Shown here one piece after another: positions 231 through 27,678 of a DNA stretch of 33,990 nucleotides. The stretch comes from Bacillota bacterium (lineage in GTDB: Bacteria > Bacillota > Bacilli > Calditerricolales > Calditerricolaceae). How positions within the stretch are numbered: the stretch's first letter is position 1; every line of letters begins with the position of its first letter. Both the position numbers and the translations under genes were made by a program. The stretch is taken from positions 1 through 33,990 of the forward strand of contig PKQU01000001.1 of assembly GCA_017577925.1 (NCBI GenBank). The letters run 5' to 3'. A model generated the notes under the pieces. That model ran no database searches and was not told where the DNA came from. It saw only the letters and a list, made by a program, of their open reading frames with translations.

Positions 231-2234
231 ATGGATTTGGAAAAACGGCTGTCCATGGCCCATCGCTATTACAATGCGGAAGACTATGAACGGGCGGTCG
301 AGGAATACGATTATCTCGTCCGCCTGCATCCCGATATGGCCGAAGCATGGTTCTTCAAGGGCATGGCCCACCGCTACCTCGAGGACTACGAGGAAGCGGT
401 GCAAGCGTTTCGCCGTGTCGTGGAAATCAATCCGCGCGACGCGGTGGCGTGGTATCGGCTGGCCGATTGCCTGATGGCGCTGGAACGTTACGAAGCCGCG
501 CTGGCCGCGATCGACGAGGCGCTGGCGCTGGACAAGAGCAACGCCGAGTGGTGGCAGATGCGGGCCATCTGCCTGGAAATGCTCGACCGGTTTGACGAAG
601 CCTACCAGGCCTACGAAGAGGCGTTGCGCCTTGAGCCGGACAACCCGGACATCTGGTACAGCAAGGGCGTGACCCTGGCCAACGACGAGCGCCTCGAGGA
701 GGCGCGGGAAGCCTACGAAAAGGTCCTTGCCCTGCGCCCCAACGACGAAGGCGCCCTGCTCAATTTGGGCGACATCTGGGAGCGTCTGGGCGATCTTGAG
801 CGCGCCCTGGCGTACTATGAACAGGCGCACAATCGGAACCCCGACAACCCCGAAGCGCTCGAAGGCTGCGTCCGCCTGCTGGCGTCGATGGGGAAAGCGG
901 CCAAAGCCCTGCCCCTGGCGCGGCGTTGGGTGTCCCTGGAAGGGGACAACGCCGAGGCGTGGAACTGGTACGCCCTGTGCCTCACCGACCTGGGCGATTG
1001 GGAGGCGGCGGAAACGGCCTTCAAGGAGGCCTTGCGGCGGGAGCCGGCCCAGGAGCGCTTCTGGAACAACTACGGCACCCTCCTCCTCGACCAAGGGCGG
1101 TACGAGGAGGCGTTGGGGGCCTTTGACCAGGCGATCCATTTGGACGTCTCGTACGCCTTGGGCCACTACAATCGCGGTTACGCCTTGGAACAGCTGGGCC
1201 GCCACGACGAGGCCCTTGAGGCGTACCGAAAGGCCTTGGCCCTCGATCCGCAGGACCCCAAGATCCTCTTTCGCGCCGCCAGCCTGCTTTCGGAGCGCGA
1301 GCAGTGGCCGGACGCGCGGCGGCTGTGGCGAACCTACTTGACCCTCGTGCCCGACGACTACGAGGCGTGGATCCAGTTTGGCATCGCCTGCGGAGAGACG
1401 GGGCACTATGAGGAGGCCCTGGCTGCGTTTGACGAGGCCCACCGCATCCGTCCCGAGGAGACCACCCCGCTGCACAACAAAGGGTACGCCTACGAGAAGA
1501 TGGGGCGCTACCGGGAAGCGGCCGAATGGTATGCGCGCGTCGTTGCGCAGGATGAGGACGACCACGAATCCTGGAGCCGCCTCGGGTGGTGCTATTTCCA
1601 AGCCGGCGAACTGGAACGCGCCTTGGCCGTCTGCGAACAATGCCTCCAGCGTGAAAAGGGCTGGACGGCGATGTGGAACAATAAAGCGATGGTCTTGGCG
1701 CGCATGGGGCGCCTCGAGGAGGCACGGGAGGCCTACGAACGTTACCTCGCCGTGGAATCAGGGGATGCGTCGGCGTGGGTCCGGTACGGTGAGGTCCTTG
1801 AGGCCCTCGGTCGCAGCGCGGAGGCCGGAGCAGCCTATTCGGCGGCCCTCAAGGCCGACGCGTCGTTCCTGCCGGCGCGCGTGCGCTTGGCGTGGCTGTA
1901 CCTGCGCAAGGGGGATGTCGAATCGGCCGCGCAGCTGCTCGATACGGTGCCGGAAGCGGAAATCGACGACGGGAACGTGTGGCTGTTGCGCGGCTTCATC
2001 GCCTTGCGCCGAGGTCGGTGGGCGGAGGCGCGGCAGGCCTTTGCGCGCGCCAAGGCGAAAGGCTGGGATGAGCCCCTGACGTGGCGCGAGCTGTGGACGC
2101 TCGTCCGCCACGCCCTGCTCGCCTCCCTCATCCGCATGTTTGGCCGGGGCCGAAACCTGTCGGCTGAAGGTCGGAACCAGAGGAGTGATGCCGCGCATGC
2201 GCAATCATCCGACGACGCTGCAAACGCTGGGTAA
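231..2234 (+). CDS. Large tetratricopeptide-repeat protein
   Basis: A 667-residue protein built almost wholly of 34-residue TPR units, roughly 17 from residue 1 to about 600, recognisable by recurring patterns such as AWYRLADCL, AEAWNWYALCL, ALGHYNRGYALEQLGR and AWVRYGEVLEALGR, often closing with DP, NP or EP turns. There is no signal peptide or clear membrane segment, so a cytoplasmic superhelical scaffold is likely. Start ATG 231 is preceded by GCGAGGTGATCGGTC, a good ribosome site. The C-terminal tail of about 50 residues is not TPR-like and overlaps the start of queD by about 38 bases, so the two are probably co-transcribed. The binding partner is unknown; the repeat family says nothing specific about function. 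Confidence 0.9.
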   Translation: MDLEKRLSMAHRYYNAEDYERAVEEYDYLVRLHPDMAEAWFFKGMAHRYLEDYEEAVQAFRRVVEINPRDAVAWYRLADCLMALERYEAALAAIDEALALDKSNAEWWQMRAICLEMLDRFDEAYQAYEEALRLEPDNPDIWYSKGVTLANDERLEEAREAYEKVLALRPNDEGALLNLGDIWERLGDLERALAYYEQAHNRNPDNPEALEGCVRLLASMGKAAKALPLARRWVSLEGDNAEAWNWYALCLTDLGDWEAAETAFKEALRREPAQERFWNNYGTLLLDQGRYEEALGAFDQAIHLDVSYALGHYNRGYALEQLGRHDEALEAYRKALALDPQDPKILFRAASLLSEREQWPDARRLWRTYLTLVPDDYEAWIQFGIACGETGHYEEALAAFDEAHRIRPEETTPLHNKGYAYEKMGRYREAAEWYARVVAQDEDDHESWSRLGWCYFQAGELERALAVCEQCLQREKGWTAMWNNKAMVLARMGRLEEAREAYERYLAVESGDASAWVRYGEVLEALGRSAEAGAAYSAALKADASFLPARVRLAWLYLRKGDVESAAQLLDTVPEAEIDDGNVWLLRGFIALRRGRWAEARQAFARAKAKGWDEPLTWRELWTLVRHALLASLIRMFGRGRNLSAEGRNQRSDAAHAQSSDDAANAG

Positions 2235-13068: not shown

Positions 13069-13402
13069 AAAAAACGCCCGTCCCCAAGGGACGGGCGTAA
13101 ACCCGCGGTACCACCCTTTTTCCGCCCGAAACCCCCATTCCGGGCGGCACTCCGGCAGGCACCCTTGCCGCGTGGAAAGATGTTCGGTGGCGGGACCGAT
13201 ACGCGGTTCCGCGAGCCTCTTCCGCTCCGGCAGGGTGCCCGTTCCGATAACGGCGGAATCACCGGGACTCCCTACTGGCCGCGGCGAAGTCGGCGTTCGG
13301 GAGCCGCCTCCGAGGGGATTTTCCGCGACGGGGATCGCCGGCTCGCACCGTCCGCCGGCTCTCTGGAGATACCACCTGACGCGTACTCGTCCTCGTCATC
13401 GG
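13069..13402 (-). promoter_or_regulatory. T-box leader with isoleucine specifier, upstream of ilvA
   Basis: On the minus strand, Stem I begins with GATGACGAGGACGAGTA (ending near 13384), then AGAGAGCCGGCGG and GGTGCGAGCCGGC as the distal AG-bulge and loop. The likely specifier is ATC (13319-13317) in GGAAAATCCCCTCGGAG, meaning isoleucine. The conserved T-box sequence AGGGTGGTACCGCG is at 13116-13103. The terminator is ACGCCCGTCCC/GGGACGGGCGT (13098-13074) followed by six Ts. Uncharged tRNA-Ile would favour the antiterminator and allow ilvA transcription. This fills almost the whole 455-base gap between ilvE and ilvA; an ATGGCCGG/CCGGCCAT inverted repeat (13424-13469) occupies the rest. Confidence 0.9.
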
Positions 13403-13479
13403 CTGATGGCGAACTGGATTGGGATGGCCGGCCTCCAGCGATACGCAAGCCGGAGAGGAAACCGGCCATTCTTGCACCG

Positions 13480-24655: not shown

Positions 24656-24683
24656 CGTAGAACCGCGTTGGCCCATAACAAAT

Positions 24684-24710
24684 GGGGTGGCGACGCGCCA
24701 CCCCGCTTTT
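24684..24710 (+). terminator. Terminator after the YhcN-like gene
   Basis: GGGGTGGCG (24684-24692) pairs with CGCCACCCC (24696-24704) over ACG, followed by GCTTTT. The minus side has ATTTGTT after the stem, so it may also weakly end the regulator-peptide transcript. Confidence 0.8.
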
Positions 24711-24745: not shown

Positions 24746-24865
24746 TTATTTGACCGCTTCGAGGGGGATCTGGAAAGCGCCGATGATCTCCCTGGCCGAG
24801 CAGACGCCGGCAACCAGGACCGAGAACACGGCGGTCAAGAACAGGACTTTCCAAAACGTCTTCAT
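24746..24865 (-). CDS. 39-residue secreted propeptide, candidate quorum-sensing signal
   Basis: ATG 24865 overlaps the stop of the upstream regulator (ATGA), and AAAGGAGG lies 9 bases before it. The 39-residue product begins MKTFWKVLFLTAVFSVLVAG, one lysine-led hydrophobic signal. It continues VCSA, a good signal-peptidase end, and then the short polar tail REIIGAFQIPLEAVK. This is the form of Phr, NprX and PapR propeptides, which lie immediately downstream of their RRNPP regulator, are exported, trimmed to 5-10 residues from the C terminus and re-imported by an oligopeptide permease. The mature peptide may be the last 7-10 residues. Role is inferred from form and context; no known signal sequence is matched. 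Confidence 0.75.
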   Translation of the reverse strand: MKTFWKVLFLTAVFSVLVAGVCSAREIIGAFQIPLEAVK

Positions 24866-26151
24866 TCCACCGTTCCTCCTTTCTGGAAGGTTGTTGCAAG
24901 TTTATAGTATTTTGCGGCTTCCTTGTATTTCCTTTTACCGTGGAACAGGTCGCCTATTTTTTCGGCCGTTTGAGCGGCCTGTTCCCGGTAGTTGTGTTGC
25001 GCGTAAAAGGCTAACGCTTCCTGGAGGAGTTTCTGGGTCCGGTCGTCGTTTCCGAGAGCCTGTTCGGCCATGGCGAGGTAGACTTGTAAATCGTATTGCT
25101 CCACCAGGAGGTTGAGTTGCTTCGCCAGGCGGATTCCTTCTTTCGTGGAATTGCGCAAATTCAGAACATCGCCGATTTCCTGGTAATGTTGGGCCAAGGC
25201 CAGGTAAATCCGCAAGCTGTCGATTTCGTAACCGTGTTGTTGCAAGATTTTGATCGCTTCCCGGTATTTGGCCACTCCCTGCTCGTGCATGTTCTTTTTA
25301 ATCAAGAGGCTTCCCATGTTGAAATGGAGATAGCCTTGAAGATAAGGGCTTTCAAAGCGCGAAAGGATTTGCTGGGCCGCTCGCAGGCAGGTTTCGCAGG
25401 CGAGCAAATCCCGGTAACGCATATGAATGACGGCCAGCGCCAGTTGTGCCACGCCCATCTCGTACCAGCGGCCGAGCAACTGGGCGATTTCGTAAAACTT
25501 GGTCCAGTAGTATAGGATTTCGCGATTGTCCTTTTTCATGCGGTCCAATACCGAGGCCATGTTGTAGTGGACATAAGCGACCTCCACATCGATGGGCAGG
25601 TGGTGGGTGATCTCGAGCGCCGCACAGAAATAGTCGTATGCGGTGATGTAGTCGCCCCGGTAAAATGCGTACGTGCCCTTCGTGCGCAGCGCCAGCATTT
25701 TGGTGTAGAGCGAGATGCCCTCGTCGATCCACCAGTCCATTTTTTCCAGCCAGGTTTTGGCGTCCTCCAGCTTTCGCCGGCGGATGTGGTACGTCGCCAT
25801 CAGCCGGTAGGCGTTGACTTTCTTGTCGATGTTGGCAATCTGTTCGGCGAGGGCTTCCACCCGGGGCCGGAGCGCATCGGCCGTCTGCAGATTGTAGAGG
25901 ATCAACGCCTCGTTGAACTCGGGAATCACCTCATCGTATTCTTCCGTTAGGCTCGGCGGGTCGTCCCCGCGCAGGAATTCCGGGGAAACCCCCAGTTTCG
26001 ACGCAAATTTTGAAATGTAGTAATCCGAAATTTCGCTTTTCCCGTTTTCCATGTTGCTCAAATGCGCGATGGAAGCGATCCCGCTGGCCAACTCCTCTTG
26101 GGTCCAGCCGCGCATGCGGCGGAGAATGCGCAAACGACGGCCTGCGTTCAT
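24862..26151 (-). CDS. HTH-TPR transcriptional regulator of the RRNPP (NprR/PlcR-like) type
   Basis: A 429-residue cytoplasmic regulator. Residues 1-60 are an XRE-type helix-turn-helix (GRRLRILRRMRGWTQEELAS, IAHLSNMENGKSEISDYY). The rest is a helical TPR array of about nine units (AYRLMATYHIRRRKLEDAK, YLHFNMGSLLIKKNMHEQG, RIYLALAQHYQEIGDVLNL), the peptide-binding domain in NprR, PlcR and Rap proteins. Length equals NprR (about 420). ATG 26151 follows GGGGAGGGACCCCC; ATG 26181 lacks a ribosome site. GC content is visibly lower than in the neighbours (one line about 45 percent). The downstream peptide gene overlaps by 4 bases. Targets are unknown; a palindrome at its own promoter suggests autoregulation. 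Confidence 0.88.
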   Translation of the reverse strand: MNAGRRLRILRRMRGWTQEELASGIASIAHLSNMENGKSEISDYYISKFASKLGVSPEFLRGDDPPSLTEEYDEVIPEFNEALILYNLQTADALRPRVEALAEQIANIDKKVNAYRLMATYHIRRRKLEDAKTWLEKMDWWIDEGISLYTKMLALRTKGTYAFYRGDYITAYDYFCAALEITHHLPIDVEVAYVHYNMASVLDRMKKDNREILYYWTKFYEIAQLLGRWYEMGVAQLALAVIHMRYRDLLACETCLRAAQQILSRFESPYLQGYLHFNMGSLLIKKNMHEQGVAKYREAIKILQQHGYEIDSLRIYLALAQHYQEIGDVLNLRNSTKEGIRLAKQLNLLVEQYDLQVYLAMAEQALGNDDRTQKLLQEALAFYAQHNYREQAAQTAEKIGDLFHGKRKYKEAAKYYKLATTFQKGGTVE

Positions 26152-26248: not shown

Positions 26249-26278
26249 ACTATACCAGAAATTGATGGTTTAGACCAT
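26249..26278 (-). promoter_or_regulatory. Promoter of the RRNPP regulator with overlapping palindrome
   Basis: On the minus strand the extended -10 is TGG TATAGT (26257-26249). The -35 position is occupied by the 14-bp palindrome ATGGT-CTAA-ACCAT (26278-26265), with a further ATGGT copy just upstream, giving TATGGTCTAAACCATC. It resembles the TATG-N8-CATA form of the PlcR box, though the inner bases differ. A regulator-binding site is likely. Confidence 0.6.
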
Positions 26279-26368
26279 ACCATTCACAACATTATGGCAA
26301 AAGCGCAAGAAAATCCGGACAGAGATGTACCGGACAGGCTGAGGCCATTCGCGTCATGCCGAGGCGAT

Positions 26369-26396
26369 AAAAACACCCCCTTCATTCGGAAGGGGG
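26369..26396 (-). terminator. Terminator of the YbjQ-like gene
   Basis: On the minus strand CCCCCTTC (26396-26389) pairs with GAAGGGGG (26383-26376), loop CGAAT, followed by TGTTTTTATC. Confidence 0.85.
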
Positions 26397-26415
26397 ATGG
26401 TGTGCTGAAATCGTC

Positions 26416-26733
26416 TCAATCAGCTAGTTTGACTGCCGTTCCCGTCGCCACAACGACCATCATGCCGTCGCGCATCGTCTCAAAATCGAGATCGATGCCT
26501 ACCACCGCATCAGCGCCCAGCCGGCGGGCGCGTTCCGCCATCTCGTTCAACGCCAGCTGCCGCCCCTCTGCCAACTTGCTTTCATATGCCCCGCTGCGCC
26601 CGCCGATGATGTCGGTGATGCTGGCCAAGAAATCGCGCACCACATTGGCACCCATAATTGTTTCCCCGGTTACGACGCCGAGGTACGCCACGATCCGCTT
26701 GCCTTCCACATTGGGTGTCGTGGTGAGGATCAC
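26416..26733 (-). CDS. YbjQ/UPF0145 family protein
   Basis: A 105-residue protein with [35 protein letters not shown], the helix [21 protein letters not shown] and a closing [11 protein letters not shown], all typical of the YbjQ/UPF0145 family, which forms ring-like oligomers of unknown cellular role. GTG 26733 follows AAAGGAGGGAATCCC. It has its own promoter and terminator, so it is a separate unit between the regulator and the esterase. Confidence 0.9.
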
Positions 26734-26792: not shown

Positions 26793-26875
26793 TCGGCTGA
26801 GCCGGCTTTTTCACGCTCGTCCCCGGTGGACGATGTGCAAGAAATTGTAGGGGCCGAACCGGTTTCAGAATGCAT

Positions 26876-26909
26876 CACCCCTTCCGGAGGTGCCCGGAAG
26901 GGGTGTTTT
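26876..26909. terminator. Hairpin downstream of the esterase gene
   Basis: CACCCCTTCCGG (26876-26887) pairs perfectly with CCGGAAGGGGTG (26894-26905). TTTT follows on the plus strand, but the nearest gene ends from the minus side (26938), where no U tract follows. It probably stops the esterase-lipB transcript or works on both strands; direction is uncertain. Confidence 0.6.
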
Positions 26910-26937
26910 GGTGTCGCGATCGAGGATCCAAATGGCC

Positions 26938-27678
26938 TTAGCCTGTCCGGGAAGTGTGGAAAAAGTGGCGCAAGGCGTCAGGGAGCATCGTTTGCCAGAA
27001 GCCCCACACATGCGTCCCCTCGGCCTCGCGGTAGGTAACGGCAGCGCCTTTTTGCCTCAGGAGGTCCCGCGCCTGGCGGTTGATGGCCACAAAGTCGACG
27101 GGGCCGATGTGGGTTTCCACCGCTGTCTCCGCCGTGCCGACGCACATGAAGATGTCATAGCCGGAGAGGTCGCCGGATGCGGCAATGCGTTCCTGGAGTT
27201 TCGGGTAGAAGGCGCCGGAGAGGGACAGCACGCGGCGGAACCGGTCCGGATGTTCCAGGGCCAGCTGAAGGGAGACACTGGCTCCCAGGGAGTCTCCGGC
27301 CAGGACGCGTGCTTGGGGGGTACGGCGTGCGGGATAGTGTGCTTCAATGAAAGGGACGAGCGTGTCGACGAAAAAGCGTGTGTAGGCCGGGTTGCGGTCG
27401 CCGGTGATGGCGTACTCGGCCGTGCGACGCTTGATGTCGACGGTGACGCCGACGATCAGGATGGGTTCCATCCCTTCGTCGAGGATGAGTTTGTTCGCAA
27501 TCGTGGCGATGCGTCCGAAGTTGAAGAATTCGCGTCCGTCTTGGCAGTACACCACCGGGTACGTCTGCCCTTCGTTGTACCCCGGCGGGAGATAGACCAG
27601 GATCTCCCGCTCGTGGTCCAGGTGCGGGCTGGCCAGGTTGTGGCGGTGGATGGTGCGCTTCAGGTACGGATTGCTCAC
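26938..27678 (-). CDS. Alpha/beta-hydrolase, putative esterase family
   Basis: A 246-residue cytoplasmic hydrolase of the esterase D/enterochelin esterase-like group. The nucleophile is S130 in AGDSLGASVSLQLAL, the oxyanion region VVYCQDGREFF, and the catalytic histidine is in the C-terminal EGTHVWGFWQTMLP. There is no signal peptide. GTG 27678 follows GAGGTGAGGCCGTC and overlaps the lipB stop (GTGA), so translation is coupled. The substrate is unknown; coupling to lipB may hint at an acyl-thioester or acyl-ester role, but that is speculation. Confidence 0.85.
   Translation of the reverse strand: MSNPYLKRTIHRHNLASPHLDHEREILVYLPPGYNEGQTYPVVYCQDGREFFNFGRIATIANKLILDEGMEPILIVGVTVDIKRRTAEYAITGDRNPAYTRFFVDTLVPFIEAHYPARRTPQARVLAGDSLGASVSLQLALEHPDRFRRVLSLSGAFYPKLQERIAASGDLSGYDIFMCVGTAETAVETHIGPVDFVAINRQARDLLRQKGAAVTYREAEGTHVWGFWQTMLPDALRHFFHTSRTG

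Follow-up and report, generated by a model that had tools for sequence, protein, structure and literature searches.

The locus described here raises the question of whether an XRE-type HTH regulator and the small frame overlapping its 3' end form a peptide quorum-sensing pair and, if they do, whether this pair is NprR-NprX itself or another member of the RRNPP kind. Receptors with an HTH domain and nine TPRs that are accompanied by a neighbouring gene for a Sec-exported propeptide are a known kind (PMC10075063, PMC9765709, PMC12700828); three clans are distinguished, and the non-degenerate 9-TPR receptors QssR, NprR, and Rap are placed in clan B (PMC12700828). The window, i.e. the whole stretch of 33,990 nucleotides analysed here, is one entire contig of a 1.95-Mb genome available as a 283-contig draft.

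Organization of the locus

Both frames were located on the minus strand as originally predicted, with the start codon of the 39-residue gene and the stop codon of the regulator sharing the sequence ATGA, and the strong ribosome-binding site claimed for the small gene is present (Table 1). The regulator is a candidate transcription factor that would sense peptides in the cytoplasm. Because terminator-like hairpins lie on both sides, the regulator and peptide genes look like a single transcription unit; these hairpins are consensus matches only, and the region contains seven terminator-like sites in total versus 3.3 expected. The Sec-type signal proposed for the small protein was judged by rule only, and the leader passes the rule-based test. 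A lipoprotein leader was rejected, since a V precedes C22 and, by rule, leaves no lipobox. By analogy with published propeptides (PMC10075063), the active signal probably lies in the last 4–10 residues of the predicted tail REIIGAFQIPLEAVK. The tail is distinct, as had been claimed, from SSKPDIVG of NprX (PMC4970707) and ADLPFEF of PapR (PMC6568020), and a limited search of the literature found no occurrence of IPLEAVK.

The palindrome listed in Table 1 might be an operator, but this is speculation: its exact sequence occurs twice in the genome, no second copy of the surrounding 16-mer has fewer than three mismatches, and the counts are similar to those of a control, i.e. it is not repeated beyond chance. 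A promoter scan of the region found no consensus promoter near the palindrome and its TATAGT hexamer, no Rfam element was found at the pair, and no target gene of the regulator was found.

Table 1. Features of the locus and of the surrounding window
Feature	Position	Strand	Remarks
HTH (XRE) + 9-TPR regulator, 429 aa	24862–26151	-	ATG at 26151, stop 24862–24864
Candidate propeptide gene, 39 aa, MKTFWKVLFLTAVFSVLVAGVCSAREIIGAFQIPLEAVK	24746–24865	-	ATG at 24865, stop 24746–24748
Sec-type leader MKTFWKVLFLTAVFSVLVAGVCSA	24794–24865	-	Predicted signal peptidase I cut A24/R25, inferred by rule
Predicted exported tail REIIGAFQIPLEAVK, 15 residues	24749–24793	-	Active signal probably in its last 4–10 residues
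Ribosome-binding site AAAGGAGG (GGAGG)	24875–24882	-	9 nt 5' of the peptide ATG
Terminator-like hairpin 3' of the pair	24684–24704	-	Same hairpin scores on the + strand, 24683–24705
Terminator-like hairpin 3' of the YbjQ gene	26376–26396	-	Parts YbjQ from the pair
Palindrome ATGGTCTAAACCAT, speculative operator	26265–26278	-	Just upstream of a TATAGT hexamer (26254–26249)
YbjQ gene	26416–26733		Between the two arms below
Left arm of imperfect inverted duplication, 84 nt	26330–26413		
Right arm of imperfect inverted duplication, 91 nt	26860–26950		
667-aa protein, largely TPR repeats	231–2234	+	
T-box leader	13084–13408	-	102 bits

Domain composition and predicted fold of the regulator

Pfam matches in the regulator were HTH_3 (9.8e-10; residues 7–60) and TPR_12 (4.5e-10; above the cut-off). 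The AlphaFold model, built from a 35-row alignment (A1), has a pLDDT of 94.8 and consists of a five-helix HTH domain and 18 paired helices, i.e. nine TPRs. RapJ was the best PDB match by E-value in Foldseek (4.7e-8), next to apo NprR and eukaryotic LGN (both 7e-8); the fold alone is not decisive, because the TPR domains of eukaryotic LGN score like those of Rap and NprR. When the A1 profile was used, NprR (4gpk) was the top natural protein (7e-60), followed by RapF (2e-50), and a designed TPR protein ranked above NprR; a single-sequence PDB search with the regulator returned the HTH match only. An IQ-TREE analysis of 36 rows places the regulator alone on a long branch, with weak support for its fork (61/87).

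Coding potential of the 39-codon frame

The GC contents of the three codon positions of the peptide frame are 0.50, 0.38, and 0.83, respectively, which is a coding pattern; G or C occupies 33 of the 40 third positions, for which the binomial p is 0.0005 given the mean of the gene itself. The regulator itself has a GC content of 0.54 versus 0.638 for the window, in agreement with the lower-GC DNA noted earlier. When the 300 nt around the regulator stop were shuffled with dinucleotides preserved, none of 5,000 trials gave a leader-like ORF comparable to the peptide frame, where comparable means a strong ribosome site, a positive start, an uncharged hydrophobic stretch, and small residues at the cut site; under a slightly looser rule, the peptide ORF is the only one of its kind in the window, all six frames considered. 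The published RRNPP_detector rules specify a TPR-containing receptor of 250–500 aa and a propeptide of 10–100 aa located at -60 to 400 bp (PMC10075063), and the 429-aa receptor and the 39-aa peptide at -4 fall within these length and spacing ranges. That survey covered complete genomes only and reported 21 new clusters (PMC10075063), to one of which the regulator may belong.

Relatives and their downstream small genes

A class search of 398 genomes at E 1e-12 yielded 37 with a match to the regulator, including its own genome; among the others, identity is 23% for the best match by E-value and 27% at most. Running the class search from G097 gave the same matches again. A phylum search of 398 genomes at E 1e-20 returned only the regulator itself, a genome-contig scan returned one false relative matching the HTH only, and no close relative carrying the pair was found. 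We examined 34 of the 36 loci (L005 and L013 being near copies), with nine further places without a locus left out, and scored as a small gene any leader-bearing ORF with a ribosome site that starts within 200 nt of the stop.

Such an ORF, encoding 38–67 aa, lies downstream of 12 of the 34 relatives (L024 being the one added to the first 33), and a thirteenth leader-bearing ORF, downstream of L035, has a weak ribosome site. None was found behind 235 control genes encoding 200 aa or more, taken from twenty 20-kb regions of genomes with relatives, or behind the 19 other window genes; for 12 of 33 relatives versus the controls, Fisher's test gives p = 1.6e-12 with kinship ignored. The remaining 22 of the 34, including the best-scoring L020–L024, have no such gene by the rule. 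The regulator family is thus mixed, in line with the report that 40% of NprR genes have a propeptide and that many receptors are without a propeptide gene (PMC9765709).

Some of these relatives (e.g. L012, L033, L036, and L042) are similar to the regulator in length and are followed 7–15 nt after the stop by a leader-bearing gene of 38–51 aa, but they share only 17–21% identity with it and have no tail sequence in common. The ORFs downstream of L009, L029, and L031 contain SEPDHPKIV three times, which resembles SSKPDIVG of NprX (PMC4970707), and that of L011 contains GLSHDFPD four times. Repeated tails have been published for NprR propeptides (PMC9765709), and these tandem-repeat propeptides are possible further signals. 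In a well-supported group of nine HTH-TPR relatives (L007, L010, L024, L026, L027, L028, L030, L034, and L039), no propeptide was detected, and the anchor-asparagine column discussed below holds E in six, G in two, and N only in L027; this group may have left peptide sensing.

Peptide-contact residues

NprR (4gpk) was added to A1, and all 11 residue numbers given in PMC4970707 landed on the correct letters; the regulator and NprR are only 15% identical over 349 columns, and residue matches are unsure at such identity. The asparagine that anchors the peptide in RRNPP receptors is kept (N278, corresponding to NprR N275), and N227 of RapF falls in the same profile column. Also kept are R126, which is an R in the regulator as well and is essential for NprX binding in NprR (PMC4970707), N194 (N197 in the regulator), and Y410. 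The four NprR residues that contact Spo0F, D107, Y118, E188, and Y223 (PMC4970707), are all replaced, by N, M, V, and G, respectively. Only Y410 is retained among the tetramer/dimer residues Y223, F225, N407, and Y410, with F225 changed to W and N407 to A, and Y165, W167, and R343 (to L) are changed as well. The original description as NprR-like is therefore supported for the architecture and unsupported for the residues underlying Spo0F contact and tetramer formation.

Many relatives also lack several of the NprR residues missing here, including those for Spo0F contact, so their loss is a sign of distance from NprR rather than of a novel function. That none of the four contacts is present argues against an NprR/Rap-type sporulation block. 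An N occupies the N278 column in 12 of the 13 relatives that have a peptide gene and in 13 of the 20 that do not (p = 0.08), and the residue is not diagnostic alone because so many peptide-less relatives keep it. In the N197 column, N occurs in 3 of the 13 with a peptide gene versus 15 of the 20 without, and the W229 column holds W in 10 of the 20 without; at these two positions, the regulator looks like the peptide-less relatives. The R126 column is R in 5/13 and 2/20, respectively.

Comparison with the sister genome and history of the locus

The order is represented by two genomes, and the regulator occurs only in that of the window. In the sister genome (G001), the pair is absent, the flanks are conserved at 82–89%, and the YbjQ gene (L043) has the opposite orientation. 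The YbjQ gene of the window lies between the arms of an imperfect inverted duplication (Table 1) with a local score of 73, versus at most 35 in 200 shuffles, and the flanks of the sister's own YbjQ gene contain no such repeat (score 28). Aligned to the sister, the right side (26876–26990) matches in unchanged orientation (score 85) and the left arm mainly in reverse (43 versus 27). The structure could be either a breakpoint duplication or an invertible segment. From these comparisons, we infer that a rearrangement occurred in the lineage of the window and that gain of the pair is likelier than its loss in the sister. The sister carries an XRE-TPR gene of its own (positions 796–1716 of L045, from G001:C43), which encodes at most 307 aa, near the length of PlcR (~285 aa), and matches the A1 profile at E 4e-31; it has no propeptide-like ORF downstream and no counterpart in the genome of the window at E 1e-5.

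The pair had been proposed to be mobile or lineage-specific. Within the two genomes of the order it is lineage-specific. A mobile element was rejected as unsupported, the sole hints being the lower GC content and the absence from the sister: neither plasmids nor phages contained a match to the regulator, a scan of viral contigs, sensitive to close relatives only, returned none, and no recombinase was present among the 14 window frames run through Pfam. A viral-structure search returned mostly generic TPR proteins. PHROGs matches were mostly confined to the first 120 residues of the regulator, with phrog_5208 (unknown function) spanning residues 158–421. A defence or toxin-antitoxin system was rejected, since PADLOC matches the HTH only and neither PADLOC nor PHROGs matches the peptide.

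Comparison with known systems and alternative explanations

NprR-NprX of the Bacillus cereus group shares with the pair an HTH + 9-TPR receptor followed by a small propeptide gene with a Sec leader, as well as R126 and N275, but differs in overall sequence, in the Spo0F-contact and tetramer residues, and in the tail, which here is a different sequence in a single copy. Rap-Phr likewise combines a 9-TPR receptor with a neighbouring small secreted propeptide, and RapF N227 and the RapJ fold have their counterparts here; Rap, however, is described as carrying a three-helix bundle and no HTH (PMC3601957), whereas the regulator has an HTH. PlcR-PapR also pairs an HTH-TPR regulator with a secreted propeptide, but PlcR has five TPRs (PMC3601957) instead of nine, the regulator being 429 aa long, and the tails are unlike.

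We consider it likely that the two genes together form an RRNPP-type unit for peptide quorum sensing. The receptor–propeptide arrangement recognized in the original prediction is borne out by the HTH and nine TPRs, the anchor asparagine, and the propeptides found at the same place in some relatives. An alternative is that a genuine regulator is followed by a gene whose small membrane or secreted product serves some other purpose, e.g. as a membrane partner or a stress peptide. A predicted mature tail of only 15 residues that is fairly hydrophobic would suit such a protein, as would the absence of a family match above the cut-off in the libraries searched (DUF2721 is a sub-threshold match, E 0.043), but RRNPP propeptides have just this position, size, and kind of leader, such genes lie 3' of 12/34 relatives and 0/235 controls, and the receptor retains the anchor asparagine, all of which makes this explanation unlikely. 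That the frame is a chance ORF, with the regulator being an orphan XRE-TPR protein whose ligand is something else or a foreign peptide on which it eavesdrops, seems still less likely: the shuffles (0/5,000), the uniqueness of the ORF across all six window frames, the coding-type GC pattern, the strong ribosome site, and the ATGA coupling oppose it, against the 22/34 relatives without a propeptide by the rule, the resemblance of N197 and W229 to peptide-less relatives, the many published receptors without a propeptide gene (PMC9765709), and the failure to find a homologue of the 39-codon frame.

Identity with NprR-NprX proper, in which the peptide-free regulator blocks sporulation via Spo0F and the peptide-bound tetramer activates genes, is disfavoured and appears very improbable. 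The HTH with nine TPRs, the top rank of NprR among natural proteins in the A1 profile search, and the retention of R126 and Y410 speak for it; all four Spo0F contacts, F225, N407, and R343 are altered, however, the tail is unlike SSKPDIVG, and the tree does not join the regulator with NprR (long branch, 61/87). The pair is thus probably a new RRNPP member with an unreported tail and not NprR proper.

Proposed mode of action and implications

By analogy with known RRNPP systems, the 39-aa propeptide would be translated along with the regulator, leave the cell by the Sec route, and be cut by signal peptidase I after CSA. The exported product would then be trimmed to a short peptide within REIIGAFQIPLEAVK and re-enter the cell via an oligopeptide permease; the genome encodes two peptide-type (SBP_bac_5) binding proteins and one signal peptidase I. 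Inside the cell, the peptide would bind in the groove on the inner face of the 9-TPR domain, where N278 and possibly R126 would hold it; the regulator would thereby change in shape or oligomer state and hence in how its HTH binds DNA, perhaps at the promoter of the regulator gene itself and at other targets. Secretion, maturation, import, binding, the direction of regulation, and the targets are all modelled on the known systems.

A more specific reading, quite possible but put forward tentatively, is that the pair is the first representative of a separate RRNPP receptor subfamily from an isolated order, probably of the class Bacilli to judge from the sporulation gene and the relatives, in which the peptide anchor is kept without the NprR/Rap contacts of the sporulation relay, the receptor acts as a pure peptide-controlled transcription factor, a new signal is released from REIIGAFQIPLEAVK, and the unit was gained with a local rearrangement that the sister lacks. 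As small overlapping genes are easily missed, draft genomes probably hold more such pairs, an expectation also expressed in PMC10075063. If the proposal is true, RRNPP would gain a divergent HTH + 9-TPR receptor and a further signal from an order of which two genomes were examined, and a receptor with the peptide anchor and without the Spo0F contacts would bear on the question of whether NprR had its sporulation function ancestrally or acquired it later.
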